From: Streptomyces sp. NBC_01591
GTDB taxonomy: Bacteria > Actinomycetota > Actinomycetes > Streptomycetales > Streptomycetaceae
Length of the DNA stretch: 64,000 nucleotides
Direction: 5' to 3'
NCBI RefSeq assembly: GCF_035918155.1
Contig: NZ_CP109328.1
Span: forward strand, 372,001-436,000
A program made the position numbers and the translations under genes. Each line of letters begins with the position of its first letter. The first letter of the stretch is position 1. Positions 39,639 through 54,187 of this stretch are shown here, piece by piece. The notes beneath the pieces were generated by a model. It worked only from the letters and a program-made list of their open reading frames with translations, did no database searches and had not been told where the DNA came from.

Positions 39639-42629
39639 GTGGGGGAACGGTTCTTGTTCAAAATCCTTGGCCCACTCATGGTGACGTCGGGCGAGCGAAA
39701 GGTGGTCATCGGCGGGGCACGTCAACGGACCACGCTTGCTCTGCTGTTGCTCAATCCCGGTCGAACCGTGCCGGTGGACACGCTGGTGCACGAAGTGTGG
39801 AACGGGAACCCTCCCGCCACCGCCCGTACCCAGATCGCCATCGTCATCGCCGCGCTCCGCAAGACGTTCAAGGCGCAGGGCGCGACCGACGACACCATCG
39901 TGACCACGCATCCGGGATACCTCCTCGATGCCGAGAGCCACTACATCGACTCGGTGGAGTTCGCCGAGCTCATCGCCCAGGCGGAGGCCGACACGCGGGA
40001 GCAACGTCTCGACGATGCGGCGCGCCGGTACCGGCGCGCCCTCGACCTGTGGCGCGGGCCCGCGCTCGCCGGGGTGTCCGGGCTGCTCGTCGAGGAGGAG
40101 GCCAACCGTCTCGGCGAGTACCGGCTCAACGCCTACGACGACGCCACCGCCGTCCAGCTGACGCTGGGGCGCCACTACGAGCTGCTGCCCGAACTGAGTG
40201 GTGTCGTACAGGAGAACCCGCTGCGCGAGCGGACCCGGTACCACCAGATGCTCGCCCAGTACCGGGCGGGCCGGCGCGCGGAGGCCATGGAGTCCTACCG
40301 GGAGGCGCGCGAGCAGTTCATCGAGGAGCTGGGTCTCGAACCGGGACCGGACCTTCAGGAGCTGCACGACCTGATCCTGCGCGACGACCCTTCGCTGGCC
40401 CCGGCCGACGGACCGGTATCCGTCGTGACCGGGTCCGCGCAGCCCGAGGTCGTCGTGGTCCCCTCCGAACTTCCCCCGGACGTACCGGGGTTCACCGGCC
40501 GTGAGACCGAACTCGCGGCCCTGGACGCGCTGCTGATCGCGTCCGATGCCGCGCTCCAGACGCCCACCGTCGGCCTGATCACCGGTGTCGCCGGGGTCGG
40601 CAAGTCCGGCCTCGCCCTGCGCTGGGCACACCGGGTCGCCGACGACTTCCCCGACGGGCGGCTCTTCGCCGACCTGCGCGGCTACGACGAGCAGCACGAG
40701 CCCGCATCCGTCGCCGACGTCCTCGGCCGCTTCCTGCGCTCGCTCGGCGTGCCGGGGCAGCAGATCCCCGAGGCGCTGGAGGAGCGGATCGCGCTCTACC
40801 GCAGCCTGCTCACCGACCGCCGCGCGCTGATCGTCCTGGACAATGTGCGCACCCATGCCCAGGTGGCCCCGCTGCTGCCGGGCAGTGGTGCCAGCTGTGT
40901 GGTCGTCACCAGCCGCGACCAGCTGGAACAGCTGGTGACCTGGCCGCAGGAGGCCCGCGTCCACCTGGGCGTCCTGCCGCCCGACGCGGCCATCGAACTC
41001 GTCGCCAAGATCACCGGCGAGGAGCGGGTCGCCGCCGCCCGCGCGGACGCCGCCCGGCTGGTCGAGCTCTGCGACCGGTTGCCGCTCGCCCTGCGCATCG
41101 GGGCCGCCCGCCTCGCGTCCAAACCGCACTGGTCGGTGCGGCACATGGTGGTGCGGCTCAGCGACGAGCGACGCAGGCTCGACGAGTTGAGCCAGGGCGA
41201 TTCCCGTGTACGGGCCGGATTCGAGCTCAGCTACCGCTACCTCTCCGCCGACGCGGCTCGCCTCTACCGGCGGCTCGGCCTCGCCGACGTACCGGACTTC
41301 ACGTCCTGGGTGGCCGCGGCGCTGCTCGACGTGGACGTGATCGACGCGGAGCTGCTCCTGGAGGACCTGGTGGACACCCAGTTCCTGGAGGTCGTGGGCG
41401 TCGACGCGACCGGCCGGCTGCGGTACCGCTTCCAGAACCTGCTGCGTCTGTACGCGGGCGAGCGCGCCCGGGACGAGGAGTCGGACGAGGCCTGGCAGGA
41501 CGCCTGCCGTCGCGTCTTCCGCACCGCCCTGACCATCGCGCGCGAGGCCCACCGACGGGAGAGCGGCGGGGAGTTCGGCATCGTGCACAGCGGCACCGAG
41601 CCGGGCGCCATCGACACGGAGCTGCTGGAGGAGCTGCTCGCGGACCCCCTGGCCTGGTTCGAGGCGGAGCGGCTCTGCCTGGTGGGCATGGTCGAGCAGG
41701 CGGCCCGGATGGGCATGGCCGACCTCGCCTGGGACCTCACGGGCTCCGCCTCGGTGCTCTTCGAGACGCGCAGCTACGTGGAGAACTGGCGGAGCTGCGC
41801 CGAACACGCGCTGGACGCGGCCCGGACCGCCGAAGACCGCCTGGGTCAGGCGGTCATGCTGCACCACATCGGGGCCGCCGCGCTGATGCGGCAGAGCATG
41901 GACGAGGCGAAGGCGTGCTCCGAGGAGGCGCTGGAGCTGTACCGCGACATGGACGAGGGGCTGGGCCGGGCCCTGGTCCTGCGGAACCTCGCGGTCGTCC
42001 ACCGCCTCCAGGGCGACCCCGACGCGGCCGCGGACCGGCTGCGCGAGGCCCTGCCCATCTTCCGCGAGGCCGGGGACCTGTCGTCGGAGTCGTCCGTCCT
42101 GCAGAACATGGCCCAACTGGAGCTGGACCGGGGCAACTACGAGGCCAGCCTCGGCCACGCCGGGGACGCGGTACGGGTCGCGGAGTCCATGGACCCCGGC
42201 GCCTCGCGCAGCCTCGCCCAGTGCCTGTACCGGCTGGGCAGCGCGCAGCTCCTGTCCGGGCGGGCGGAGGAGGCCGAGGCGTCGTACCTGCGCGTGGAGG
42301 AGCTGTCCCGGGCGAAGGCCGACACCCACGGTCTCGCGCACGCCCTGTACGGTCTCGGCCAGGCCCGCGTGGCGCTCGGCGCGCTCGAATCGGCCGAGGC
42401 CGCGTACGTCCAGGGGCGCAAGGTCGCCCGCAGGCTCGGCAGTCCCGTGGTCGAGGGATCGATCCGGCTGAAGCTCGGTGTACTTCTTCGGGAGCTGGGC
42501 CGGGACGGGGAGGCCCGGACCGAACTCCTGGGTGCGGAGGAGCTGTTCACCCGCAGGGGGGCCACGCACTGGCAGGAGGAGGTCGCGCGGGAGCTCAGTG
42601 ACTTCCCGGAGGTGGGTTCCGGCGATTAA
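39639..42629 (+). CDS. SARP-family regulator with NB-ARC and TPR domains (AfsR-like)
   Basis: 996 aa from GTG 39639, behind GGGAGG; GTG 39573 would add 22 residues. Domains: OmpR-like winged helix (FKILGPLMV to DTIVTTHPGYLL, residues about 5-95), bacterial transcriptional activation domain (BTAD, about 103-250), NB-ARC ATPase (P-loop GVAGVGKSGLA near 316, ALIVLDNV near 400, GSGASCVVVTSRD, LPLALRI) and C-terminal TPRs (about 700-990). Large SARPs such as AfsR are typical pathway activators of Streptomyces antibiotic clusters. Its position just before sbnB, trpE and the rest makes it the likely cluster activator. Confidence 0.92.
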   Translation: MGERFLFKILGPLMVTSGERKVVIGGARQRTTLALLLLNPGRTVPVDTLVHEVWNGNPPATARTQIAIVIAALRKTFKAQGATDDTIVTTHPGYLLDAESHYIDSVEFAELIAQAEADTREQRLDDAARRYRRALDLWRGPALAGVSGLLVEEEANRLGEYRLNAYDDATAVQLTLGRHYELLPELSGVVQENPLRERTRYHQMLAQYRAGRRAEAMESYREAREQFIEELGLEPGPDLQELHDLILRDDPSLAPADGPVSVVTGSAQPEVVVVPSELPPDVPGFTGRETELAALDALLIASDAALQTPTVGLITGVAGVGKSGLALRWAHRVADDFPDGRLFADLRGYDEQHEPASVADVLGRFLRSLGVPGQQIPEALEERIALYRSLLTDRRALIVLDNVRTHAQVAPLLPGSGASCVVVTSRDQLEQLVTWPQEARVHLGVLPPDAAIELVAKITGEERVAAARADAARLVELCDRLPLALRIGAARLASKPHWSVRHMVVRLSDERRRLDELSQGDSRVRAGFELSYRYLSADAARLYRRLGLADVPDFTSWVAAALLDVDVIDAELLLEDLVDTQFLEVVGVDATGRLRYRFQNLLRLYAGERARDEESDEAWQDACRRVFRTALTIAREAHRRESGGEFGIVHSGTEPGAIDTELLEELLADPLAWFEAERLCLVGMVEQAARMGMADLAWDLTGSASVLFETRSYVENWRSCAEHALDAARTAEDRLGQAVMLHHIGAAALMRQSMDEAKACSEEALELYRDMDEGLGRALVLRNLAVVHRLQGDPDAAADRLREALPIFREAGDLSSESSVLQNMAQLELDRGNYEASLGHAGDAVRVAESMDPGASRSLAQCLYRLGSAQLLSGRAEEAEASYLRVEELSRAKADTHGLAHALYGLGQARVALGALESAEAAYVQGRKVARRLGSPVVEGSIRLKLGVLLRELGRDGEARTELLGAEELFTRRGATHWQEEVARELSDFPEVGSGD

Positions 42630-42707
42630 TCCGGCAATATCACGCCGATAAGGCGGATGCCTAGCGTCATCACAGAGATTCAGTTTCCGAGAACTGTGGA
42701 GTCTGTG

Positions 42708-43742
42708 ATGCCGCCTACCCCCGGGGTGCCCTCCTTCGCCGTGATCCCCGGCGCGCAAGTGCACCGAGTCCTCGACGGCCGGCACGAGGAAGTGGTCCGG
42801 TTGATCGAGTCGGCCTACCGCGTGCATGGTGCCGGTGACACGGTCAACCCGCCGTCCTACTTCCTGCGTTTCCCCGACCGCCCCGCCTCACGCATCATCG
42901 CCCTGCCCGCTTCCCTCGGCGGGGGCGCCCCCGTCGACGGCATCAAATGGATCTCCAGCTTTCCCGAGAACGTGGCGGCCGGGATACCCCGGGCCTCCGC
43001 GGTGCTCATCCTCAACGATCCGGAGACCGGCTATCCGCTGGCCTGTCTGGAGAGCTCCATCATCAGCGCGGCCCGCACCGCCGCCTCGGCGGCACTGGCC
43101 GCGGCCAGGCTCACCGAAGGGCGCGAGCGGCCGCGCCGCATCGGCTTCTTCGGGACCGGTCTGATCGCCCGGTTCATCCACCAGTACCTCGTGGGCACCG
43201 GCTGGAGCTTCGAGGAGACCGGGGTGTACGACCTGTCGGCCGAGCACGCCAAGGGCTTCGCCACGCACCTGGAACGCGAGGGCGACAACGGCACGGTGAC
43301 CCTGCACACCGACCCCGAACAGCTGATCCGCTCCAGCGACGTCATCGTCTTCGCGACCGTCGCCGGAACCCCGCACGTCACCGACCCGGCGTGGTTCGGC
43401 CACAGCCCGCTGGTGCTGCACGTGTCGTTGCGCGACCTGTCGCCCGAGGTGATCCTCTCGGCCGTCAACGTCGTCGACGACATCGACCACTGCCTGAAGG
43501 CCGAGACGTCCCCGCACCTCGCCGAACGGCTCAGCGGCAACCGGGAGTTCATCGACGGAACCCTGTACGACGTGCTCACCGGCGATCTGAAGATCCCCGA
43601 CGACCGGACCGTCGTCTTCTCGCCCTTCGGGCTCGGCGTCCTGGATCTCGCGGTCGGCAGACACATCTACGACACCCTGCGCGCCGACGGCGAACTCGCC
43701 GTGGTGGACGACTTCTTCCACGAGATGCGCCGATACGGCTGA
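42708..43742 (+). CDS. sbnB: SbnB-like 2,3-diaminopropionate biosynthesis dehydrogenase
   Basis: 344 aa from ATG 42708 (GGAG 7 nt upstream). Ornithine cyclodeaminase/mu-crystallin fold with NPPSYFLRFPDRPASRIIALPASLGG near residue 40, GIKWISSFPENV near 84, and the Rossmann block IGFFGTGLIARFI near 144. The pattern matches SbnB, which oxidatively cleaves N-(1-amino-1-carboxy-2-ethyl)-L-glutamate to L-2,3-diaminopropionate and 2-oxoglutarate. Its partner SbnA is at 51475. Spacing of 14 nt to trpE indicates one transcript. Confidence 0.88.
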   Translation: MPPTPGVPSFAVIPGAQVHRVLDGRHEEVVRLIESAYRVHGAGDTVNPPSYFLRFPDRPASRIIALPASLGGGAPVDGIKWISSFPENVAAGIPRASAVLILNDPETGYPLACLESSIISAARTAASAALAAARLTEGRERPRRIGFFGTGLIARFIHQYLVGTGWSFEETGVYDLSAEHAKGFATHLEREGDNGTVTLHTDPEQLIRSSDVIVFATVAGTPHVTDPAWFGHSPLVLHVSLRDLSPEVILSAVNVVDDIDHCLKAETSPHLAERLSGNREFIDGTLYDVLTGDLKIPDDRTVVFSPFGLGVLDLAVGRHIYDTLRADGELAVVDDFFHEMRRYG

Positions 43743-43756
43743 GGAATGAGACGACA

Positions 43757-45292
43757 GTGACCACTCTGCTCGACAGCCCGCCCCGGCCCGCAGGGCCCGG
43801 CCGGGGCCCCATCGCCGTACGCGTGGAGGAGACCACCCTCGCCCCGCACGAACCGCTCGACCTGTATGCCGCGCTGCGTGAGCGGTCGGCGCACGACGTC
43901 TTCCTGCTGGAGAGCCGCGAAGGCCCCGGGCAGTCCCCCGGGGCCACCGTCGTCGGCCACGGACTGCTCGCCGAGATCCGGGTCTACGCCGACCGGATCC
44001 GTGCCGACGGTGCCGAAGCCGTCGTGGCCGCGGTCCTCACGGCGGCCGACGGGCTCGGCCTCACCCCGCGGCCCGGCAACGAACGCGGTCTGCTCCACGG
44101 CGACCAGGTCTGGCAGGTGCTGCGTGCCGTCCAGGCCCTGTTCACAGTGGAGACGAGCCGGCCCCACGACAGCTACGCCTTCGGATTCCTCGCCACCTTT
44201 GGCTACGGCTCCGCCTGGCACATGGAAACACTGCCCGACCGGGGCGACCGGGACGACGCCGAACCCGACATCGTGCTCGGCCTGTTCCGCGAGACCATCT
44301 GGTACGGCCCGGAACCGGACGCCGTGCGCAGGCTCACCGCGCACAGCGACGCCTTTCCCGACCCGGCGCCCTTCGACCTGGCCGAGGAGACCGTCGCGGC
44401 GGTCGCCGCGGTCGGCCGGATCCCCGAGGTCCTGCCCGAGGCGCCCCGGCCGCACTCCGTACGGGACACCTGCGACGAGGAGACGTTCCTCGCGCGGGTC
44501 GACCGCTGCCTGGAGCACATCGGCGTCGGCGACATCTACCAGATCCAGATCGGCCACCGCATCGACGTCGAGTCCGACCTCGAACCCTTCGAGGTCTACC
44601 GGCGGCTGCGCGGCCGCAACCCGTCCCCGTACATGTACCTCGTCCCGCGCGACGGGCGCACCGTTGTCGGCGCCAGCCCCGAAGTGCTCTTCCGGACCGG
44701 GGGCGGCACGGTCGTGATGCGGCCCATCGCCGGGACCGCGCCGCGCAGTGGGGACCCCGTCGTGGACGAGGCCCGGGTCGCCCGGCTCGTCGCCGACGAG
44801 AAGGAGCGTGCCGAGCACGTCATGCTCGTCGACCTGTGCCGCAACGACATCGGCCGGGTCTGCCTGCCCGGCACGCTGGAGGCCCGGGGGCTGATGACGG
44901 TCGAGACGTACTCGCACGTCTTCCATCTCGTCTCCACCGTCGAGGGCACCCTCGCCCCCGAGGACGACACCTGGTCCGTGCTGCGCGCGACCTTCCCGGC
45001 GGGCACCGTCACCGGCGCCCCCAAGATCCGTGCCATGGAGATCATCGAGGAGCTGGAGAGCGAGCCGCGCGGCATGTACGCGGGCGCCGTCGGCCTCGTC
45101 GACCTGCGCGGCTGGAGCCAACTCGCCCTGTGCATCCGGACCATCGTGCACGACGGCCGCAGCGGCACCTACTCCACCCAGAGCTGCGCGGGCATCGTCG
45201 CCGACTCGTCCCCCGGGGCCGAGTGGCGGGAGACCCTGCACAAGATGGGAGCCGCCTACTGGGCGCTGACCGGTGAGGAGCTGCTGCCGTGA
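43757..45292 (+). CDS. trpE: Anthranilate synthase component I
   Basis: 511 aa from GTG 43757. Chorismate-binding core: GDIYQIQIGHRIDVE near residue 258, NPSPYMYLVPRDGRTVVGASPEVLF, RPIAGTAPRSGD, MLVDLCRNDIGRV, FPAGTVTGAPKIRAMEIIEELE and STQSCAGIVADS. It uses ammonia from TrpG to turn chorismate into anthranilate. A cluster-encoded copy in an NRPS locus with a tryptophan halogenase and trpD points to dedicated tryptophan supply. The N-terminal regulatory domain is diverged from primary TrpE, which might relax feedback inhibition (inference). Confidence 0.9.
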   Translation: MTTLLDSPPRPAGPGRGPIAVRVEETTLAPHEPLDLYAALRERSAHDVFLLESREGPGQSPGATVVGHGLLAEIRVYADRIRADGAEAVVAAVLTAADGLGLTPRPGNERGLLHGDQVWQVLRAVQALFTVETSRPHDSYAFGFLATFGYGSAWHMETLPDRGDRDDAEPDIVLGLFRETIWYGPEPDAVRRLTAHSDAFPDPAPFDLAEETVAAVAAVGRIPEVLPEAPRPHSVRDTCDEETFLARVDRCLEHIGVGDIYQIQIGHRIDVESDLEPFEVYRRLRGRNPSPYMYLVPRDGRTVVGASPEVLFRTGGGTVVMRPIAGTAPRSGDPVVDEARVARLVADEKERAEHVMLVDLCRNDIGRVCLPGTLEARGLMTVETYSHVFHLVSTVEGTLAPEDDTWSVLRATFPAGTVTGAPKIRAMEIIEELESEPRGMYAGAVGLVDLRGWSQLALCIRTIVHDGRSGTYSTQSCAGIVADSSPGAEWRETLHKMGAAYWALTGEELLP

Positions 45293-45927
45293 AGGTCCTG
45301 CTCGTCGACGCGTACGACAGCTTCACCCACATCATCGACCAGTACCTGCGCACCCTCGGCGCCGACACCGACGTCGTCCGGTCGCGCACCCGCACCCCGC
45401 AGCAGCTCGCCGGCCTGCGGCCCGACGCGGTCGTCCTCGGCCCGGGGCCCGGGCACGCGGCCGACTCGGGACACGTGGAGCTGGTGCACACCTTCGCCGG
45501 GTCCGTGCCGCTGCTCGGCATCTGCCTGGGCCACCAGGCGATCTGTCTGGCGTACGGAGGCCGGGTCACGGTCGCCGAGCGGCTCAAGCACGGCAAGACC
45601 AGCCTCGTGAGCCACGACGGCGCCGGGGTGTTCGAGGGACTGGAGCCGGTCATGACCGCCACGCGCTATCACTCGCTGATCGCCGACGAACCGTTGCCGC
45701 CCCCGCTGATCGCCACCGCGCACGCCCAGGACGACGGCTATGTGATGGGGCTGCGGCACCGCACGCTCGCCGTGGAAGGGGTGCAGTTCCACCCCGAGTC
45801 CATCACCACCGTCGGCGGGCTGCGGCTCCTGGACAACTTCCTGACGGCCGCCCGCCGGGCCGGCCCCGCACGGGAGACCGATATGCGGAACTCACGGTCC
45901 GGGTCGACCGGACGTTTAATTCTATGA
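45289..45927 (+). CDS. trpG: Anthranilate synthase component II (glutamine amidotransferase)
   Basis: 212 aa, GTG overlapping the trpE stop by 4 nt. Class I amidotransferase: VVLGPGPGHAADSG, nucleophile Cys in LLGICLGHQAICLAYGG near residue 83, and GVQFHPESITT near 162 with His/Glu. Delivers ammonia from glutamine to TrpE. The last 20 residues are a diverged tail. Confidence 0.92.
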   Translation: MKVLLVDAYDSFTHIIDQYLRTLGADTDVVRSRTRTPQQLAGLRPDAVVLGPGPGHAADSGHVELVHTFAGSVPLLGICLGHQAICLAYGGRVTVAERLKHGKTSLVSHDGAGVFEGLEPVMTATRYHSLIADEPLPPPLIATAHAQDDGYVMGLRHRTLAVEGVQFHPESITTVGGLRLLDNFLTAARRAGPARETDMRNSRSGSTGRLIL

Positions 45928-46061
45928 GGATCGGCGGAGTGGGTGAATCCGTTCAATATGCCGTCGGTCTATTTATGCGATCCGCCCCTCGCAGATCGCA
46001 TGTGATCCCTTCGGCCCCGCCTTCCCGGTGGCAGGAATGTTCCGGTCCGGATTGGGGTTGA
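45924..46061 (+). CDS. Possible small ORF coupled to trpG
   Basis: The trpG stop overlaps an ATG (ATGA at 45924-45927) opening a 45-codon frame with two tryptophan codons near its end (RWQE...DWG). No ribosome-binding site is visible apart from coupling. It could be a leader-like peptide or chance. An 8-bp hairpin, ATGCGATC / GATCGCAT (45975-45982, 45994-46001), lies inside it. Confidence 0.2.
45975..46001 (+). promoter_or_regulatory. Hairpin in the trpG to repeat-protein interval
   Basis: Stem ATGCGATC / GATCGCAT with an 11-nt loop, 48 nt after trpG. The 46062-46192 segment following it is AT-rich (for example TTATATCAATTTTATTG near 46069) and probably holds the promoter of the repeat-protein gene. 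The hairpin may end the trpEG transcript or act as an attenuator. Confidence 0.4.
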
Positions 46062-46192
46062 ACAGCGGTTATATCAATTTTATTGTCGGGTCGTAGGGTG
46101 GGAAGTCCTGGCGATAATGCATCGAAACCGGCCCTTCCTAATGTTCTGGTTGTCGGAACGAACCGCAGCAGTTCATATGGGGGGAAGAAATC

Positions 46193-46483
46193 ATGAAGCT
46201 CGACGCGATCACCGGAAAGATCCAGAAGACCGTTGTCGTGACGCTCGCCGGTGCGGCGATATTCGCCACCGTGCAGACCGTCGGAGACAACGGCCCGGGG
46301 GACCACGGCACTTCCTACTCCGTCACCGCTGCCACCCTGCTGGACGACCCGTGGCACCCCAGCACCGAGTCCGCTCCGGCGTCGACGCTGGACGACCCGT
46401 GGCACCCCAGCACCAAGCCCGCCCCGGCGTCGATGCTGGACGACCCGTGGCACCCGGCGCCGACCCCGACGCCGAGCGACTGA
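46193..46483 (+). CDS. 96-aa protein with three LDDPWHP repeats
   Basis: ATG 46193 follows a strong RBS, GGGGGGAAG. Residues 1-12 are basic, and 13-30 are hydrophobic ([18 protein letters not shown]), like a signal peptide or single membrane anchor. Residues 49-96 are exactly three 16-residue repeats: [48 protein letters not shown]; the DNA repeats with the same 48-bp period. Every repeat carries one Trp and one His. The gene is 20 nt upstream of trpD and so co-transcribed with it. I do not recognise the family. It could be a multi-core precursor peptide, an exported structural or metal-binding peptide, or a tryptophan-sensing leader. Placement inside a chlorotryptophan cluster makes it notable. 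Confidence 0.75.
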
Positions 46484-46503
46484 CCCGAAGAAGGAGAAGA
46501 CCA

Positions 46504-47607
46504 GTGAGCGCCACGACACCCGAACAGGACCGCTGCTGGCCCCCGTTGCTGGGGCAGGTGCTCGACGGCCGGGATCTGACCGCCGCCGACACCACCTGGG
46601 TGATGGACCAGGTGATGCGGGGCCGGGCGACCGACGCGCAGATCGCCGGCTTCCTGGTGGCCCTGCGGGCCAAGGGCGAGACCGTGGGCGAGCTCGAAGG
46701 GCTCGTACACGGCATGCTGGCCCATGCCGTACACATCGACGTGCCGGGGAGGACCGTCGACGTGGTGGGCACCGGGGGCGACGGCGCACACACGGTCAAC
46801 ATCTCCACGATGTCCGCGATCGTCGCGGCGGGAGCGGGGGCACGGGTCGTCAAGCACGGCAACCGTGCGGCGAGTTCGGCCTCCGGCTCCGCCGACGTCC
46901 TGGAGGCACTGGGCGTCACCCTGCGGCTGCCGCCCGAGCGGATCGCCGCCGTGGTCGACGAGGCGGGCATCACCTTCTGCTTCGCGCCGGACTTCCACCC
47001 GGCGATGCGCCACGCGGCGGGGCCGCGCAAGCAGCTCGGCATCCCGACCGTCTTCAACGCGCTGGGCCCGCTGACCAATCCGGCGGCGCCCACCGCGCAG
47101 GCGGTCGGGGTCGCCGACGCCCGGCTGCTGCCGCTGATCGCGGGGGCGCTGTCCCGGGCCGGCGGCCGGGGCCTGGTCTTCCGGGGCGACGACGGGCTCG
47201 ATGAACTCACCGTCACCACCACGTCGACCGTGCTGACCGTGGACGACGGGGACATCAGGCGGGAGCGCTTCGACCCGCGCGACGTGGGGATCGCGCTCGC
47301 GCCGCTGGAGGCACTGCGGGGGGCGGACGCCGCGTACAACGCGACCGTCGCCCGGCGCGTCCTCGACGGCGAGCGCGGCCCGGTCCGGGACGCGGTCCTG
47401 CTCTCCGCGGGCGCCGCGCTCGTGGCGGGCGAACCCACCGGGGGCCGTACCGTCACCGAACGCCTCGGCTGGGCGGTGGAAGCGGCGGGCCGGGCGATCG
47501 ACTCCGGCGCCGCGGCCGACACCCTCGAGCGGTGGGTGCGGGCCACCGCGGCCCCGCACCCCCCGGCCGTCGAAGCCCCGGTCACCCGGGTCGCGACGGC
47601 GGCGTGA
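46504..47607 (+). CDS. trpD: Anthranilate phosphoribosyltransferase
   Basis: 367 aa from GTG 46504, behind GAAGGAGAAG. Motifs [53 protein letters not shown] (PRPP and anthranilate binding) near residue 80, then [35 protein letters not shown]. Transfers phosphoribose to anthranilate. Cluster copies of trpE, trpG and trpD supply the early tryptophan steps; trpC, trpF, trpA and trpB are not in the window and may come from primary metabolism. Confidence 0.92.
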
Positions 47608-47635
47608 CCCGCCACTCGGGACGGATGCGGATCGT

Positions 47636-47692
47636 GGACGGCGCCATGGCGGTACTTCCCGGGAGACCGGTGGGTACGGCCATGGCGCGTCC
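47636..47692. terminator. Convergent terminator hairpin after trpD
   Basis: Near-perfect arms (47636-47650 and 47679-47692: GGAC, one unpaired base, then GCGCCATGGC, against GCCATGGCGC-GTCC) enclose about 28 nt. It lies between the plus-strand trpD and the minus-strand antiporter genes. Confidence 0.5.
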
Positions 47693-47698
47693 GCGCGG

Positions 47699-49039
47699 TC
47701 ACCGGGCAGCGGTGGGTTCGAGGGCCTGGTCCCGCTCCAGGTCCGCTCCGCCGGCCGTCGCCGGCTCCGCGTCGTCCCGGGCCGGCGGCCCGGACTCCGT
47801 CCGTTCGGAACCGCGGAACTTCTCGCGCCGGATCCAGGAGAGGGCCGGCGACGTGAGGCCCGTGGTGATCAGCGCCATCAGTACCAGCATGGTGAACAGA
47901 TCGGGCCCGATCACACCGAGTTCGAGCCCCAGGTTCAGCACCACCAGCTCGGTCAGTCCCCGGCAGTTCATCAGTGCCCCGATCGCCAGGGAGTCGCGCC
48001 AGGACTGACCCGCCAGCCGGGCCCCGCCCGTGCTCCCGCCCCACTTGCCGATCATCGCGACGGCGAGCACGGCCAGCGCCCACAGCCACTGGACCGGGTC
48101 GCCGGCCAGCAGTGAGACATCGGTGCGCAGCCCGGTGGCGACGAAGAACAGCGGCAGCAGCACGGGAACCGAGAACGCGCGCAGCCGAGCCGTGCAGCGT
48201 TCGATGCCCCTGGATCCCCGAGGAGTGACCAGACCGAAGACGAAGGCGCCGAACAGCGCGTGCACACCGATCTTGTCGGTGGCCAGTGCGGAGAGGCACA
48301 GGCCGCTGAAGAGGACGACGAGGACCACACCGTCCACCATCCGCTCGGCCCGCTTCGCCCAGAGGGCGAGCAGCGGACGCAGCGCGTAGATCATGACGGC
48401 GAGGAAGACCGCGGCGAGCGCCGCCGTCGTCAGCGCCTCGGCCGGCGAACCGCTCGTCGACACCGCGACCACCGCCGCCAGCAGGCACCAGGCGGTCACG
48501 TCGTCGACCGCCGCGCACGCCATGGCCAGCGAGCCGATCCGGGTACCGATCAGGCCCCGGTCGGTGAGGACCCGGGCGAGGACGGGGAACGCGGTGATGC
48601 TCATCGACACGGCGATGAACAGCACGAACGGCAACCGGCCCACGCCGGGCGGCGCGAACGAGCCGAACATCGCGAGGGCCAGCAACGAGCCCAGGACCAG
48701 CGGCAGGACGATGCTCGCCTGACTGACCGCGACCGCGGTCCCGCGATGGCCGCGCAATGTGCCGAGATCCAGTTCGAGGCCGACCAGGAACATGAAGGCC
48801 AGCAGGCCGATGTTGCCGAAGGCGCTGATGAATGGCATCACGGACTCGGGGAACAGCCAGGCCTGTGCCGCGGGCGAGACCCAGCCCAGCAGCGACGGCC
48901 CCAGCATGATGCCGAGGGTGATCTCACCGATGACCGGCGGCTGGCCGAACCTGCGGAACAGCTGGGCGCCCGCCTGGCACACCAGGATGACCACCGGGAT
49001 GGCGATCAGGAGATCGGGCAGGGGGTCACGTGCCGACAC
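47699..49039 (-). CDS. Cation/proton antiporter (CPA2 family)
   Basis: 446 aa from GTG 49039. About 12 membrane segments. GQPPVIGEITLGIMLGPSLLG near residue 32 and FLVGLELDLGTLR near 84 are CPA2 hallmarks; ACAAVDDVTAWCLLA carries the DD/ND ion-binding pair. A hydrophilic acidic tail of about 40 residues follows. It overlaps the flavin reductase gene by 14 nt. Similar antiporters occur in antibiotic clusters and may drive export or self-protection; the link is inferred from position. Confidence 0.85.
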   Translation of the reverse strand: MSARDPLPDLLIAIPVVILVCQAGAQLFRRFGQPPVIGEITLGIMLGPSLLGWVSPAAQAWLFPESVMPFISAFGNIGLLAFMFLVGLELDLGTLRGHRGTAVAVSQASIVLPLVLGSLLALAMFGSFAPPGVGRLPFVLFIAVSMSITAFPVLARVLTDRGLIGTRIGSLAMACAAVDDVTAWCLLAAVVAVSTSGSPAEALTTAALAAVFLAVMIYALRPLLALWAKRAERMVDGVVLVVLFSGLCLSALATDKIGVHALFGAFVFGLVTPRGSRGIERCTARLRAFSVPVLLPLFFVATGLRTDVSLLAGDPVQWLWALAVLAVAMIGKWGGSTGGARLAGQSWRDSLAIGALMNCRGLTELVVLNLGLELGVIGPDLFTMLVLMALITTGLTSPALSWIRREKFRGSERTESGPPARDDAEPATAGGADLERDQALEPTAAR

Positions 49040-49562
49040 GGCCGGCTCCTTCCTTGGCGGCCGCCGTGGCGTCCGACCAGCGTGCGTAGCGGCGCCGCCC
49101 GTACAACAGCGGCTGGGCGGACTCGTCGGCGGTGAACCGCCGTACCTGGGCGAAGACGGTGGTGTGGTCCCCGACCTCCCGCGTACCGACCACCACGCAG
49201 TCGGCGATGGCGTGCGCGGCCTCCGTCAGGTGCGGGCCGCCCGCGCCCAGCGGCAGCCGCCACTCGCTCAGCGCGAACCGGTCGGGGTTGCCCGAGGCGA
49301 ACAGGTTGGACGTGTCGTGGGCCTCCTCGTGCAGCAGGTTGAGGGCCAACTGCCCACTGGACAGCACGGATTCGGTGGTGGGGCTCGCCGTGCGCAGGCA
49401 GATCACGAGTGTCGGCGGGGAGAGCGCCACGCTCGCCAGTGAACTGCAGGTCATCCCGCGGGGCGTGCCGTCGGCGTCGAGCGTCGTCACCACGGAGACG
49501 CCGGAGGGGAAACTGCCCATCAGCGGGCGTATGTCGGCTTCCGGAACGGGCCGGTCGGTCAT
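49026..49562 (-). CDS. NAD(P)H:flavin oxidoreductase, halogenase partner
   Basis: 178 aa from ATG 49562 (MTDRPVPEADIR). Flavin reductase-like domain: LMGSFPSGVSVVTTLDADGTPRGMTCSSLASVALSPPTLVICL, NLLHEEA, FALSEWRL. Such two-component reductases release FADH2 for tryptophan halogenases and monooxygenases. It starts 87 nt downstream of the halogenase stop on the same strand, fitting that role. Confidence 0.88.
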   Translation of the reverse strand: MTDRPVPEADIRPLMGSFPSGVSVVTTLDADGTPRGMTCSSLASVALSPPTLVICLRTASPTTESVLSSGQLALNLLHEEAHDTSNLFASGNPDRFALSEWRLPLGAGGPHLTEAAHAIADCVVVGTREVGDHTTVFAQVRRFTADESAQPLLYGRRRYARWSDATAAAKEGAGRVGT

Positions 49563-49648
49563 GGTTTCTCCTGTCGAAGACGTGTGCCGCGCGCCCGGCA
49601 GCCGGCCGGAGAGGAGCCCCGGCTGCCGGGCGACGCGGTGCGGCACGA

Positions 49649-51262
49649 CTACTTGCCGTGCAGCTGGCGGAGCGCCTCGTGGGTGCTCGGCAGAGAGTTG
49701 AGGAGCTCCTTCTGCTCCTTCTTGACCTGGGCGAACATGGCCTGCGCGGCGGCCACGGACTCCGGCTTGTGGTAGAGGATCGGCAGCGGTGCGTCCGGCT
49801 CCAGACCGAGGCCGGCGAAGATGCAGTAATAGCGCTCGTTGGTCCAGAAGTTACGGAATTCCGCCTCGAAATTCCCGTAGTACGTCGTGTCGTCGGTGGC
49901 CGCGGGATTGACCGGAAGACCCGCCTTGTACGCGTCGATCTTCTCGCGAATGCTCGCGGGGAGTTTCAGTTCCTTGTTGGCGCGCCAGAAGGGCGAGTCG
50001 GTACGCGGCGCGAAGTAGAAGTGCGTCTGGATGAAATCGCGGGTGTCGTCGAACATCACCTCGATTTCCTTGTTGAAGTTGTCGACCAGGGCCTGGTTGA
50101 ACGTCTTGTCCGGGAAGTGCTTGGCCAGCTGGTAGGCCGCGGCGGTGATGAAGTAGATGCCGGTGGACTCCAGGGGCTCCAGGAAGGCGCTGGAAAGGCC
50201 GATGCCGATGACGTTCTTCACCCAGGCACGGCGGTTTCGGCCGACCCGGAACTTCACGTGGTTGAACTCGGTGGTCTCGGGGTCCAGGCCCCACAGTTCG
50301 CAGAACTCGGCGGTGGCCTCCTCCTGCGTGGTGAAGCGGCTGGAGTAGACGTAACCGGTGCCGAAGCGGCCCGGCATCGGTATCTTCCAGGTCCACCCGG
50401 AGGACATGGCGATCGCCGAGGTGTACGGCTCCACTCCGTTGGCCTCGTCGTCGTGCGGCACGGCCGTGGCGACCGCGCGGTCGCACAGCAGCTGGTCGCT
50501 CATGTCGACGAAGGGCTCCTCCATCGCCTGGTTCATCAGCAGGCTGCGGAAGCCGGAGCAGTCCACGAACAGGTCCGCGTCCAGGACCCGGCCCTCCTTG
50601 GTGTGCAGGGCCTTGACGAAGCCCCGCTCGTCCTTCTCGACGCGCGTCATCTCGTCCTGGATGTGGTCCACGCCCTGCTTCTCGGTGGCGAACCGGCGCA
50701 GGAAGTCCGCGACGAGCGCCGCGTCGAAGTGCCACGCGTACCTGGTGGGGGAGGTGCCGTCCAGGTGCCGCGGCGCCTTCTTGGCGTCCATCAGTGGCGC
50801 CTCGCGGAAGCAGGCGTAGTCGTACGGCTCGTCCGTCTTGCCCTCGTACTTGTTCTTGAACCAGTAGTGCGACATCGGGATGTTGTTGTGTTCCGGGCTG
50901 ATGCCGAACGGGTGGTAGAAGTGGTCCGGACCGCCCTTGTCGAGCTCACGCGGACCGCTCTGGCCCTTGCCCGGAGTACGCCAGTTGATGAAGCGGACCG
51001 CCATCTTGTAACTGGCGTTGCACTCGCGCATCCACTCCTCCTCCTCGATTCCGAGAAAGTCGAAGAGAACACGGTGCAGATTGGGCACGGTGGCCTCGCC
51101 CACACCGATGCGCGGAATGCTCGGCGCCTCCAGGACCGTGACGTCGACCGTGCTCTGGAGGGCCTTGCCGAGATAGGCGGCGGTCATCCAGCCGGCGGTC
51201 CCGCCGCCGAGGATCACGACCTTCTTGATGGCGTTGTCTGTTGCGGTGGAGGTGCGCGTCAT
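49649..51262 (-). CDS. FADH2-dependent tryptophan halogenase
   Basis: 537 aa from ATG 51262. FAD-binding GGGTAGWM at residues 19-26; the catalytic lysine lies in [14 protein letters not shown] (K86); the halogenase signature WTWKIP is in [10 protein letters not shown] near 287; the substrate-positioning glutamate is in FLEPLESTG. The text tracks RebH/PrnA (for example [49 protein letters not shown]), so it belongs to the Trp-7/Trp-6 group rather than the PyrH-type Trp-5 group. It should form HOCl at the flavin and chlorinate free tryptophan. Regiochemistry cannot be read from the sequence alone. Confidence 0.93.
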
Positions 51263-51387
51263 ATCGAATTCCCTCTTCTCACCGAAGTGGTGGTGTCGGA
51301 ACTGTGGAGATGGCCAGAGTCGGCAGCGTCCCTACGGCACTTCTATAAACCGGCGGAAAAGGCTGAATGAGATCGTTGGGCGTCGGC

Positions 51388-51402
51388 ACGTATGGAGTAC
51401 GT
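51388..51402. promoter_or_regulatory. Palindrome in the halogenase/sbnA divergent promoter region
   Basis: ACGTA-TGGAG-TACGT lies in the 212-bp interval between halogenase and sbnA starts. The interval is comparatively AT-rich and should hold both promoters; no SARP heptamer repeats were obvious. Confidence 0.35.
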
Positions 51403-51474
51403 ATAGCGCGCGGGATCAGTCTGGGACCTGTTGATTCCGCACTCGTAACTCCCAGCAGAGGATGGCTGCATCAC

Positions 51475-52524
51475 ATGCCGTGCACAGAACGGGAGCCGGA
51501 GACGGGGCTGAAAGGCATCCTTTCCACTGTGGGAGGAACCCCGCTCGTAGAGCTCGAACGGTTGATACCGGGGTTCACCTCGCGTGTGTTCGCCAAGGTG
51601 GAGCGTTTCAACCCCGGCGGCAGTGTCAAGGACCGCTCCGCGCTGAACATGGTGGCCACGAAGATCCGGTCGGGAGAACTCGTCCCGGGCCGTTCGACGG
51701 TCATCGAGTCCAGCTCGGGAAACCTCGCGATCGGGCTCGCGCAGATCTGCGGCTACTACGGCCTGCGGCTCGTCTGTGTGGTGGACACCCGCACCACCCG
51801 GCAGAACATCGGGATCCTGCGGGCCTACGGGGCCGAGGTCGAGATCGTCACCGAGCCCGACCCGGCCACCGGGGAACTGCTGCCCGCCCGGCTGCACAGG
51901 GTCGCCGAGCTCGTGGCGACCACCCCCGACGCGTACTGGCCCGACCAGTACGCCAACCCGCTCAACCGGCGGGCCCACGAGACCACGATGCGGGAGATCG
52001 CCGAAGCCCTCGACGGCAAGGTCGACCAGCTCGTCGTGGCCGCGGGCACCAGCGGCACGCTCGGCGGCTGCGCCGAGTACATCCGCCGGCATCGCCTCGG
52101 CACGGCCGTCAACGCGGTCGACGCCCTCGGCAGCGTGCTGTTCGACTCACCCGTCGACTGCGCCCGCCTGGTGCCCGGCCACGGCGCGTCCGTCGCGCCC
52201 AAACTGCTGCGGCGCGACGACGCCGACCGGGTGGTGCACGTCGGCGACCTGGACTGCGTGGTGGGCTGCCGCACCCTGGTGCGCCGCGAGGCGATCCTCG
52301 CCGGCGGCTCCTCGGGCGCGGTCGTCGCGGCCCTGGCCCGGCTCGCCCCCGGCATACCACCCGGCTCCAACGTCGTGATCGTGCTGCCCGACGGCGGCGA
52401 CCGCTACCTCGACACGATCTACGACGACACCTGGGTGCACCGGCACTTCGGGGACGTCTCCCACCTGTGGGAAGAGCCGCCGGTCGGGGGGCTCTTGGGC
52501 CAACTGGCCGATATAGCCCAGTAA
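51475..52524 (+). CDS. sbnA: SbnA-like 2,3-diaminopropionate biosynthesis synthase
   Basis: 349 aa from ATG 51475. PLP fold type II (cysteine synthase-like): GGTPLVELERL, the PLP lysine in RFNPGGSVKDRSALNM (K near 51), ESSSGNLAIGLAQI (substrate loop) and AAGTSGTLGG. SbnA condenses O-phospho-L-serine with L-glutamate to give ACEGA, which SbnB then cleaves to L-2,3-diaminopropionate. Presence of both genes in one cluster strongly suggests this amino acid is a building block. Weak RBS, so the exact start is less sure. Confidence 0.88.
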   Translation: MPCTEREPETGLKGILSTVGGTPLVELERLIPGFTSRVFAKVERFNPGGSVKDRSALNMVATKIRSGELVPGRSTVIESSSGNLAIGLAQICGYYGLRLVCVVDTRTTRQNIGILRAYGAEVEIVTEPDPATGELLPARLHRVAELVATTPDAYWPDQYANPLNRRAHETTMREIAEALDGKVDQLVVAAGTSGTLGGCAEYIRRHRLGTAVNAVDALGSVLFDSPVDCARLVPGHGASVAPKLLRRDDADRVVHVGDLDCVVGCRTLVRREAILAGGSSGAVVAALARLAPGIPPGSNVVIVLPDGGDRYLDTIYDDTWVHRHFGDVSHLWEEPPVGGLLGQLADIAQ

Positions 52525-52558
52525 TAGCGCGTCGCCGCAGGGTTGTTCCACGACCGAT

Positions 52559-52615
52559 CAGAACCAGAAGAACCAGAAAAACAAGAAGAACAAGAAGAAC
52601 CAGCGAAACCCGAAC
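52559..52615 (+). repeat. Purine/A-rich low-complexity leader before the ACP
   Basis: A run of near-repeats of GAA, CAA and CCA triplets (AACCAGAAGAACC-like) stands out from the 72% GC background. It lies in the intergenic leader between sbnA and the ACP and has no stop-free coding role I can assign. It may keep the RBS unstructured. Confidence 0.6.
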
Positions 52616-52634
52616 CGAGACCCGGAGGCACCAC

Positions 52635-52898
52635 ATGACCACCCAGATCGCCGACCTCGGCACCGAGCGCAAGGCCGAGATCAAGGAAATCGTCTGCGAC
52701 ATTCTTGAACTGGAGCTCGACGAGGTCACCGAGACCAGCCTCTTCAAGGAGGAGCACGACGCCGACTCCCTGCGCACCATAGAGATCCTCGCCTCCATGG
52801 AGCGCAACTTCGGTCTCGTCCTGGAGCAGGCCGAGCTCAGCCGCATGGTCAACCTGGCGGGTGTGTACGCCGTGGTCGCGGAGGCCGAGGGAAAGTGA
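52635..52898 (+). CDS. Acyl carrier protein
   Basis: 87 aa from ATG 52635, behind GGAGG. Serine for phosphopantetheine in EEHDADSLRTIEILASME (near residue 43). Stand-alone type II ACP that should carry the growing acyl chain for the KS/CLF next door. Four-nt overlap with the KS gene. Confidence 0.9.
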   Translation: MTTQIADLGTERKAEIKEIVCDILELELDEVTETSLFKEEHDADSLRTIEILASMERNFGLVLEQAELSRMVNLAGVYAVVAEAEGK

Positions 52899-54187
52899 GC
52901 GGGGCGACGGGCGGCACGGCGCCGCGCACGACCCCCCGGCACCGGGTGGTGATCACCGGGCTCGGCGTGGTGACCAGCATCGGTACCGGGGTGGATGCCT
53001 TCGCCGACGGCCTGCGGGCCGGACGCAGCGGCGCCAAGCCGATCGGCGCCTTCGACACCACCGGTTTCGCGTACTCCAACGCCTGCGAGATCACCGACTT
53101 CGACCCCGACACGTGGCTGCGCGAACTGGCGGCCGACGAGCTCGGCCGGGCCGCGCAGTTCGCGGTGGCCGGCAGCCGGATGGCGGTCGCGGACGCGGGG
53201 CTCACCGAGGACGACGTACGGGCCAGGCGCACCCTGGTCTCGGTCGGCACCACCGACGGTGAGTCCCGCGACCTGGACCATCTGATCGGCTTGCAGGTCA
53301 CCGAGGGCGAGGACCGGCTCGACGCCACCGTCGCCCGCCGGGTGTGGCCCGGCCGGCTCTCCGCGGGCATCGTCCGCGAACTCGGCCTGGAGGACGTGGA
53401 GACGGTCACCGTCCCTACCGCCTGCGCGGCCGGTAATTACGCGGTCGGCTCCGGTTACGACGCGATCAGCTCCGGCGACGTCGAGATGGCGTTGTGCGGC
53501 GGGGCGGACGCCCTGTGCCGCAAGACGTTCACCGGCTTCTACCGGCTCGGCACCATCGCCCCCGACGTGTGCCGTCCCTTCGACGCCGACCGGCAGGGCA
53601 TCCTGACCGGCGAGGGTGCCGGGATACTCCTGATGGAGTCCCTGGAGTCCGCGCTGGCCCGCGGCGCCCGCATCTACGCGGAGGTCCTGGGCTACGGGCT
53701 GTCCTGCGACGCGAGCCACCCGGTCGCGCCCGACCGGGACTCCATCGCGCGCTGCATCACCGCCGCCCACCGCAACGCGGGCATCGAGGCGTCCGACGTG
53801 GACTTCATCTCGGCGCACGGCACCGGCACCAGGGCCAACGACGTCACCGAGGTCGGCGCGATCCGGCAGGTCTTCGGCGACGAACTGCCGCGCACCGTGT
53901 CGATCAAGTCGATGATCGGCCACACCATGGGCGCCGCGAGCGCGCTGGCCGCCGCGGCCTGCTCCCTGGCGCTCCGGGAGGGCTTCATCCCGCCCACCGT
54001 CAACCACCGCACGACCGACCCCGAGTGCGCGGTCGACTGCGTACCCAACGAGGCGGTCGAGGCCCGGCTGCGGGTCGTGCAGAACAACGGCCTCGCCTTC
54101 GGCGGGAACAACGCGGTCCTGATGCTCGGCCACTGGGACGAGAACGCGGCCGAAACCCTGCCCGCCGACGCGACAGCGGCGGCCTGA
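52895..54187 (+). CDS. Beta-ketoacyl-ACP synthase (KS, type II PKS)
   Basis: 430 aa, GTG start overlapping the ACP stop. Catalytic triad: Cys in VPTACAAGNYAVG (near 177), His in ISAHGTGT (near 308) and His in IGHTMGA (near 343). TGLGVVTSIG opens the thiolase fold. Together with the next gene it forms a KS/CLF heterodimer. Such pairs with a ketoreductase but without aromatase/cyclase are found in clusters making reduced or polyene acyl chains. Confidence 0.93.
   Translation: MSGATGGTAPRTTPRHRVVITGLGVVTSIGTGVDAFADGLRAGRSGAKPIGAFDTTGFAYSNACEITDFDPDTWLRELAADELGRAAQFAVAGSRMAVADAGLTEDDVRARRTLVSVGTTDGESRDLDHLIGLQVTEGEDRLDATVARRVWPGRLSAGIVRELGLEDVETVTVPTACAAGNYAVGSGYDAISSGDVEMALCGGADALCRKTFTGFYRLGTIAPDVCRPFDADRQGILTGEGAGILLMESLESALARGARIYAEVLGYGLSCDASHPVAPDRDSIARCITAAHRNAGIEASDVDFISAHGTGTRANDVTEVGAIRQVFGDELPRTVSIKSMIGHTMGAASALAAAACSLALREGFIPPTVNHRTTDPECAVDCVPNEAVEARLRVVQNNGLAFGGNNAVLMLGHWDENAAETLPADATAAA

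Follow-up and report, generated by a model that had tools for sequence, protein, structure and literature searches.

A reading frame of 96 codons, a large part of it devoted to Trp-containing repeats, lies between two tryptophan biosynthesis genes and near a tryptophan halogenase gene, raising the question of what a small repetitive peptide does in such a place. The window analysed here, the whole 64,000-nucleotide stretch, comes from contig C2 (1.27 Mb) of a three-contig assembly totalling 10.25 Mb. The features on which the argument draws are as follows.

45289..45927, + strand: trpG, glutamine amidotransferase, anthranilate synthase component II (Pfam scan; annotation of orthologues)
45897..45913, + strand: terminator-like hairpin in the last codons of trpG (shuffled sequences give 0.4 ± 0.8 such sites)
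46110..46192, + strand: 5′ block followed by the ribosome-binding site, partly conserved in diverged clusters
46193..46483, + strand: small ORF, 96 aa, with a signal-peptide-like N-terminus and three DDPWHP motifs; member of a new family
46193..46285, + strand: signal-peptide-like region, residues 1–31 (in-house anatomy rule)
46339..46455, + strand: tandem array with a 48-bp period (Tandem Repeats Finder)
46504..47607, + strand: trpD, anthranilate phosphoribosyltransferase, the next gene downstream of the small ORF
49649..51262, − strand: Trp halogenase, closest to Trp 6-halogenases (Thal type), then RebH

The small ORF, its repeats and its cluster

The small ORF is a real gene. It runs from an ATG at 46193 to a stop at 46481–46483, in agreement with the coordinates and 96-residue length given by the first-pass annotation, with a GGGGGG sequence (46179–46184) 8 nt 5′ of the start and codon-position GC contents (0.62/0.58/0.91) that fit the genes of the window. 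The distance from its stop to the trpD GTG at 46504 is 20 nt, likewise as first described. Between the window and a close relative (L003), dN/dS was 0.17/0.26 for the small ORF, 0.025/0.176 for trpG and 0.021/0.105 for trpD; the small ORF evolves faster than either flanking gene. The trpD frame itself stays open through the small ORF and past its start (46117–47607), so a gene caller could mis-start trpD.

Tandem Repeats Finder reported a single array, at 46339–46455, with a period of 48, 2.4 copies, 94% matches and a score of 206. In the protein, DDPWHP occurs at residues 51–56, 67–72 and 83–88, at 16-residue spacing. The earlier description of three exact 16-residue repeats therefore stands for the number and spacing of the units and not for their exactness: LDDPWHP is the one part that all three share, the two complete spacers are not identical to each other, and the third spacer reads PAPTPTPSD. 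The array is no sequencing artefact, because it recurs, with three, four or six copies, in homologues from 18 plasmid records and two other genomes. As a control, we scanned 392 Streptomyces genomes for pairs of DPWH-coding motifs 27–57 nt apart and obtained matches in seven, two of which are family members (the window's genome and G075). Those in G380, G209 and G267 fall in PWHR-rich low-complexity frames, and that in G169 has its two motifs in different frames. In G008 (L077, G008:C39, locus position 1501–1554), two in-frame DPWH motifs lie 14 residues apart in a 304-residue open stretch; this is a candidate frame only and looks unrelated to the small-ORF family.

No known family had been suggested for the peptide at first, and the profile searches agree: it had no Pfam match at 1e-3, and its best NCBIfam match reached E 0.27 and 11.3 bits, against a cut-off of 204. 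No PDB sequence matched at E 1. Neither the string DPWHP nor combined terms for secreted repeat peptides gave a match in the open-licence PMC literature, and annotated plasmid records label the peptide 'hypothetical protein'.

Its proposed setting in a trp/halogenase cluster is borne out by the flanking trpG and trpD genes and the Trp halogenase at 49649..51262. The neighbouring genes encode SbnB, TrpE (named from annotated orthologues), TrpG, the small ORF, TrpD, an antiporter, a flavin reductase, the Trp halogenase and SbnA, together with a phosphopantetheine-site protein, two ketosynthase-type proteins, a DsbA-like protein, a condensation-domain protein and an FAD-binding protein. The best PDB matches of the halogenase are Trp 6-halogenase entries at 894 bits, followed by RebH at 855 bits; Trp 6-halogenases act on free Trp. 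One orthologous plasmid (L035) has an MbtH protein and two NRPS genes adjoining the cluster. An ornithine carbamoyltransferase gene adjoins the NRPS genes there. We recognised no description of the chemistry of this cluster in the portions of the open-licence PMC literature available to us, PMC10100901 among them.

TrpM (SCO2038), a small protein of the S. coelicolor trpCXBA locus (PMC5036795), is likewise encoded by a small ORF among Streptomyces tryptophan genes and belongs to no known family; it differs in sitting between trpC and trpB, the comparison being one of locus and not of sequence. In the trpC–trpB gap of the window's own genome, the three ORFs of at least 40 aa had no signal-like N-terminus and no DPW array.

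Relatives of the peptide in the same slot

Close homologues were sought by tblastn of the peptide in 72,556 plasmid records and by a scan of genome contigs. The plasmid search matched 18 records, all from Streptomyces and all linear (0.34–1.26 Mb), and outside the plasmid set the peptide was found in S. gelaticus and Streptomyces sp. ADI95-17. These loci share a cluster type with a Trp-6-halogenase-like enzyme, SbnA/SbnB and a ketosynthase pair, in which the small ORF lies between trpG and trpD. Fifteen of the 18 plasmid records carry annotation, with trpG before and trpD after the small ORF; in the three that do not, a TrpD search placed trpD 19 nt after the small-ORF stop. The homologues found occur only in the trp/halogenase cluster, none of them in an unrelated context. 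Repeat number varies among them, as the first-pass annotation had asked: six plasmids have three DDPWHP copies, like the window, 11 have four (one copy being GDPWHP in two of these) and one has six, and both other genomes have four. Searching the plasmids with TrpD returned 25 records, the same 18 at 96–97% identity and seven more distant; an ORF scan around three of these seven revealed no such peptide.

Ten distinct close variants supply 38 motif copies, in which D, P, W, H and P are invariant and the first Asp is kept in 37, while the Pro codons vary (CCG/CCT/CCC; CCG/CCC) and the spacers take 16 different forms. Recent duplication produced some of the copies, and the clade-A clusters are closely related to one another, which keeps the copies from counting as independent evidence. 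With the window peptide and its close variants as queries, eight of 392 and four of 394 genomes matched at E 1e-3 or better, two in each set being true members (the window's own genome counted in each), and these counts underestimate the family because peptide queries miss diverged forms. Fourteen weak matches in other genomes, read on both strands, hold no DPWH; L011, where a larger frame contains one DDPWRP, and L010, with a single LDDDWHP, were taken as chance matches.

Diverged forms were reached through neighbouring genes only and not by sequence search with the close forms. A halogenase search of 392 Streptomyces genomes gave 30 genomes with a match at 1e-150 or better, the window's own included, and longer stretches were taken for 22 of the 28 genomes other than the window's and G075. 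A ketosynthase search of 394 Streptomycetaceae genomes gave 30 genomes with a match at 1e-190 or better, again including the window's own, and added stretches from 11 further genomes. Coverage took in all five non-own matches of 86–89% identity (G555, G586, G173, G647 and G312) and G608 (96%); 15 weaker matches (69–75%) were left out. A signal-like small ORF lies directly before trpD in all eight genomes with a trpD at least 75% identical on the stretch (L091, L093, L096/L153, L098/L152, L141, L142, L143 and L144, the last judged from its peptide to be S. gelaticus again). At L092/L154 and L094 the contig ends before trpD, making them uninformative. In L091, L093, L141 and L142, what we take to be a class II DAHP synthase-like protein is encoded between trpG and the small ORF; it has 448 aa in L091 and L093, and only its end was seen in L141 and L142.

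The small ORFs of the seven diverged orthologous clusters share little with the window peptide beyond a C-terminal Trp motif. Single-copy forms end in GEWH (L091, L093), DPWS (L096), QPW (L098), DEWG (L141) or DEWS (L142), and L143 has five DPWS copies, repeated with a 12-residue unit, the last forming its C-terminal end. The Trp stands 0 or 1 residue from the C-terminus in all six single-copy forms and in the last copy of L143. A midpoint-rooted tree of seven concatenated proteins from 14 clusters has three groups: the window clade with three, four or six DDPWHP; L091/L093/L141/L142 with one motif each; and L096/L098/L143 with one, one and five. Support is 1.000 for the window-clade split and for each other group, and 0.356 within L096/L098/L143, whose internal order it does not settle. 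The tree, together with repeat units of unequal length (16 and 12 residues), makes a separate amplification the simplest reading of the fivefold L143 array; a multi-copy ancestor with later loss of copies could also have produced the pattern.

We also examined 260 candidate ORFs in 986,120 bp, some loci overlapping, in a scan for small ORFs that combine a signal-like start with either a terminal acidic-x-Trp motif or at least two DPW. On stretches of up to 20 kb the scan found no such peptide beside more distant trpD genes (L148, 64%; L088, 66%) or in 14 halogenase loci with no trpD seen on the stretch (L095, L097, L099–L110), and since it overlooked L098/L152, whose QPW ends were found by reading the gap, its misses are no proof of absence. 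Four non-family ORFs from the scan, one each in L091, L093, L145 and L146, were taken as chance.

The peptide is tied less closely to the halogenase than to trpD, since some loci in which no peptide was found still group the halogenase gene with those for the flavin reductase and the antiporter. A part in Trp supply would also agree with the constant pairing with trpD, which cannot be told apart from pairing with the cluster as a whole, as every complete cluster seen unites the genes concerned. Genes related to those of the antiporter, flavin reductase and halogenase (47699–51262) occur side by side in halogenase loci with no trpD seen (e.g. L097, L099–L105), which suggests that they form a functional trio.

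A probably exported Trp-motif peptide

The first-pass annotation had described the N-terminus as signal- or membrane-like, and a home-made rule (n-region, h-region, small residues at −3 and −1), used in place of SignalP, supports this. The window peptide has a net charge of +3, counting the amino terminus, before a hydrophobic core at residues 13–27 (mean Kyte–Doolittle 2.17), and a candidate cleavage site at TVG|DN. All 12 representatives of the family show the same anatomy, with an n-region charge of +3 to +5 (amino terminus counted), a 15-residue core of mean hydropathy 1.94–2.98, a charge of 0 or below after the core and at least one candidate cleavage site; none contains Cys. Candidate sites in some diverged forms are AEA|Q, AHA|A and VQA|A, and those of the window clade are the weaker-looking TVG|D, TVS|E and SEA|G. 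From this n-, h- and c-region anatomy, the peptide is probably exported by the general secretion route; alternatively, the N-terminal segment could be an uncleaved membrane anchor. An AlphaFold model built with three sequences has one low-confidence N-terminal helix (residues 3–32), a mean pLDDT of 50.7, no residue at 70 or above and no confident structure past residue 32, and the tail after the N-terminus is accordingly modelled as disordered.

Our best guess, to which we assign a probability of roughly 35%, is that the small ORF encodes a multivalent exported binding peptide serving the product of the cluster. After export by the general route, the chain would remain unstructured outside the membrane, and its working element would be a short motif around Trp that in most forms directly follows an acidic residue: DDPWHP in the window, and DPWS, GEWH, DEWG, DEWS or DDTQPW elsewhere. 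Motif copies would be added by tandem duplication, which makes binding through repeated weak contacts the most likely mode. The partner would probably be the chlorotryptophan-containing product of the cluster itself, or else an exported protein dealing with that product. Retention of the motif in diverged clusters, together with its apparently separate amplification, points to selection acting on an exported Trp motif with, in most cases, an acidic residue ahead of it; that the motif is kept while much of the rest of the chain changes, and seems to have been amplified in two lineages, is a good indication that its function is under selection. Against this reading, the window-clade cleavage sites look weaker than the AEA, AHA and VQA of the diverged forms.

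Two known systems illustrate parts of such a mechanism. Epsin-type arrays hold several short DPW motifs in a disordered chain and bind by avidity; they are cytosolic and eukaryotic, unlike the small ORF product, and show only how such arrays can work. The chromoprotein apoproteins of enediyne clusters are small exported proteins that are encoded in a product cluster and handle its product, but they are folded, whereas the mature part of the small-ORF product is predicted to be disordered. With this family, the idea of an exported short-motif peptide attached to a biosynthetic cluster can be put to a direct test.

Precursor and regulatory alternatives

The main rival, possible though doubtful, is a precursor of extracellular peptides that would be exported and cut to release one active peptide per DPW unit, or a C-terminal Trp peptide in the single-copy forms. 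The signal-like N-terminus, the one to six near-identical units, with their apparently separate amplification, and the near-terminal Trp of the six single-copy forms and the last L143 copy are all as such a precursor would have them. The spacers, however, vary and lack a dibasic pair, the processing site looked for; no conserved processing site emerged, and no dedicated receptor or protease was recognised among the genes read. Yeast alpha-factor-type precursors combine a signal sequence with a variable number of near-identical short units containing Trp, and by description the small-ORF product resembles them, differing in being bacterial and in having no dibasic processing sites. That it is a bacterial counterpart of multi-copy pheromone precursors, whose released peptides would report synthesis of the chlorotryptophan product to neighbouring cells, we consider unlikely.

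Less likely again is a regulatory ORF, in which ribosome slowing at the Trp codons, or the nascent chain, would set trpD expression and the conserved 5′ block could add control. The small ORF is always directly upstream of trpD, its stop overlaps a candidate trpD ATG in L091 and L093 (TGATG), and a Trp codon stands beside the stop in single-copy forms. The 5′ block is partly conserved, 12 sequences agreeing throughout in GATA, TTCT, CGG and further columns, and is recognisable even where the cluster proteins are about 79% identical; it is a candidate promoter, operator or RNA leader, with no second copy of note in the window or its genome. If the hairpin at the end of trpG is real, it would point weakly to a separate transcription unit of the small ORF and trpD.

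Other observations count against regulation of trpD. The residues around the Trp are kept while Pro codons change, and the distance from stop to trpD ranges from overlap to about 50 nt. In a Trp attenuator, the regulated gene is preceded by a short ORF whose Trp codons are adjacent and by a terminator/antiterminator; here single Trp codons lie 16 codons apart and no terminator-like site occurs on the + strand between 46193 and 46560, so that the Trp-responsive leader suggested at first finds no support. SecM/TnaC-like arrest leaders have a C-terminal arrest sequence that is conserved and fixed in position relative to the downstream start, whereas the C-terminal ends here share the Trp motif only. 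RNA folding is inconsistent: across the 12 sequences, from three clades, z-scores span +0.62 to −2.71, and a single 5-bp hairpin survives in alifold; one of its pairs changes from G-C to U-A in L098, but L096 and L143 break it. A conserved RNA switch in the 5′ leader, which pairing with the ribosome-binding site in close relatives had made promising, was set aside on these folds; the close relatives are too similar to test that pairing (third-position identity 0.87–0.94 in trpG and trpD). An upstream ORF with a Trp codon (ATG 46117) was rejected as its end is not conserved, and the one sub-threshold Rfam match in region 42500–53000 was taken as chance. The trp genes of S. coelicolor, moreover, are not under negative control by Trp, according to PMC5036795.

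A RiPP-like precursor, its Trp halogenated or otherwise modified by cluster enzymes, is very unlikely. The repeated Trp core and the halogenase in the cluster invite this reading, and a halogenase substrate had been among the roles first suggested. The enzyme is nevertheless closest to the Trp 6-halogenases, with their free substrate, halogenases 75–78% identical lie in loci from which the scan returned no such peptide, and halogenation would have to precede export. No RiPP-type modifying enzyme was recognised among the annotated or Pfam-scanned cluster genes read. ComX is likewise a short chain with a functional Trp near its C-terminus; in its case the Trp is prenylated by ComQ and the precursor has no Sec signal. 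Of the metal binding also raised at first, a His-based form is unlikely from the sequences, as the DPWS, QPW, DEWG and DEWS forms have no His.

Near the orthologous cluster in L035 (NZ_CP109116.1 220000-264000) we noted an ebo-type operon (EboA, EboE and a prenyltransferase), in which the annotated prenyltransferase gene lies about 33 kb from the cluster.
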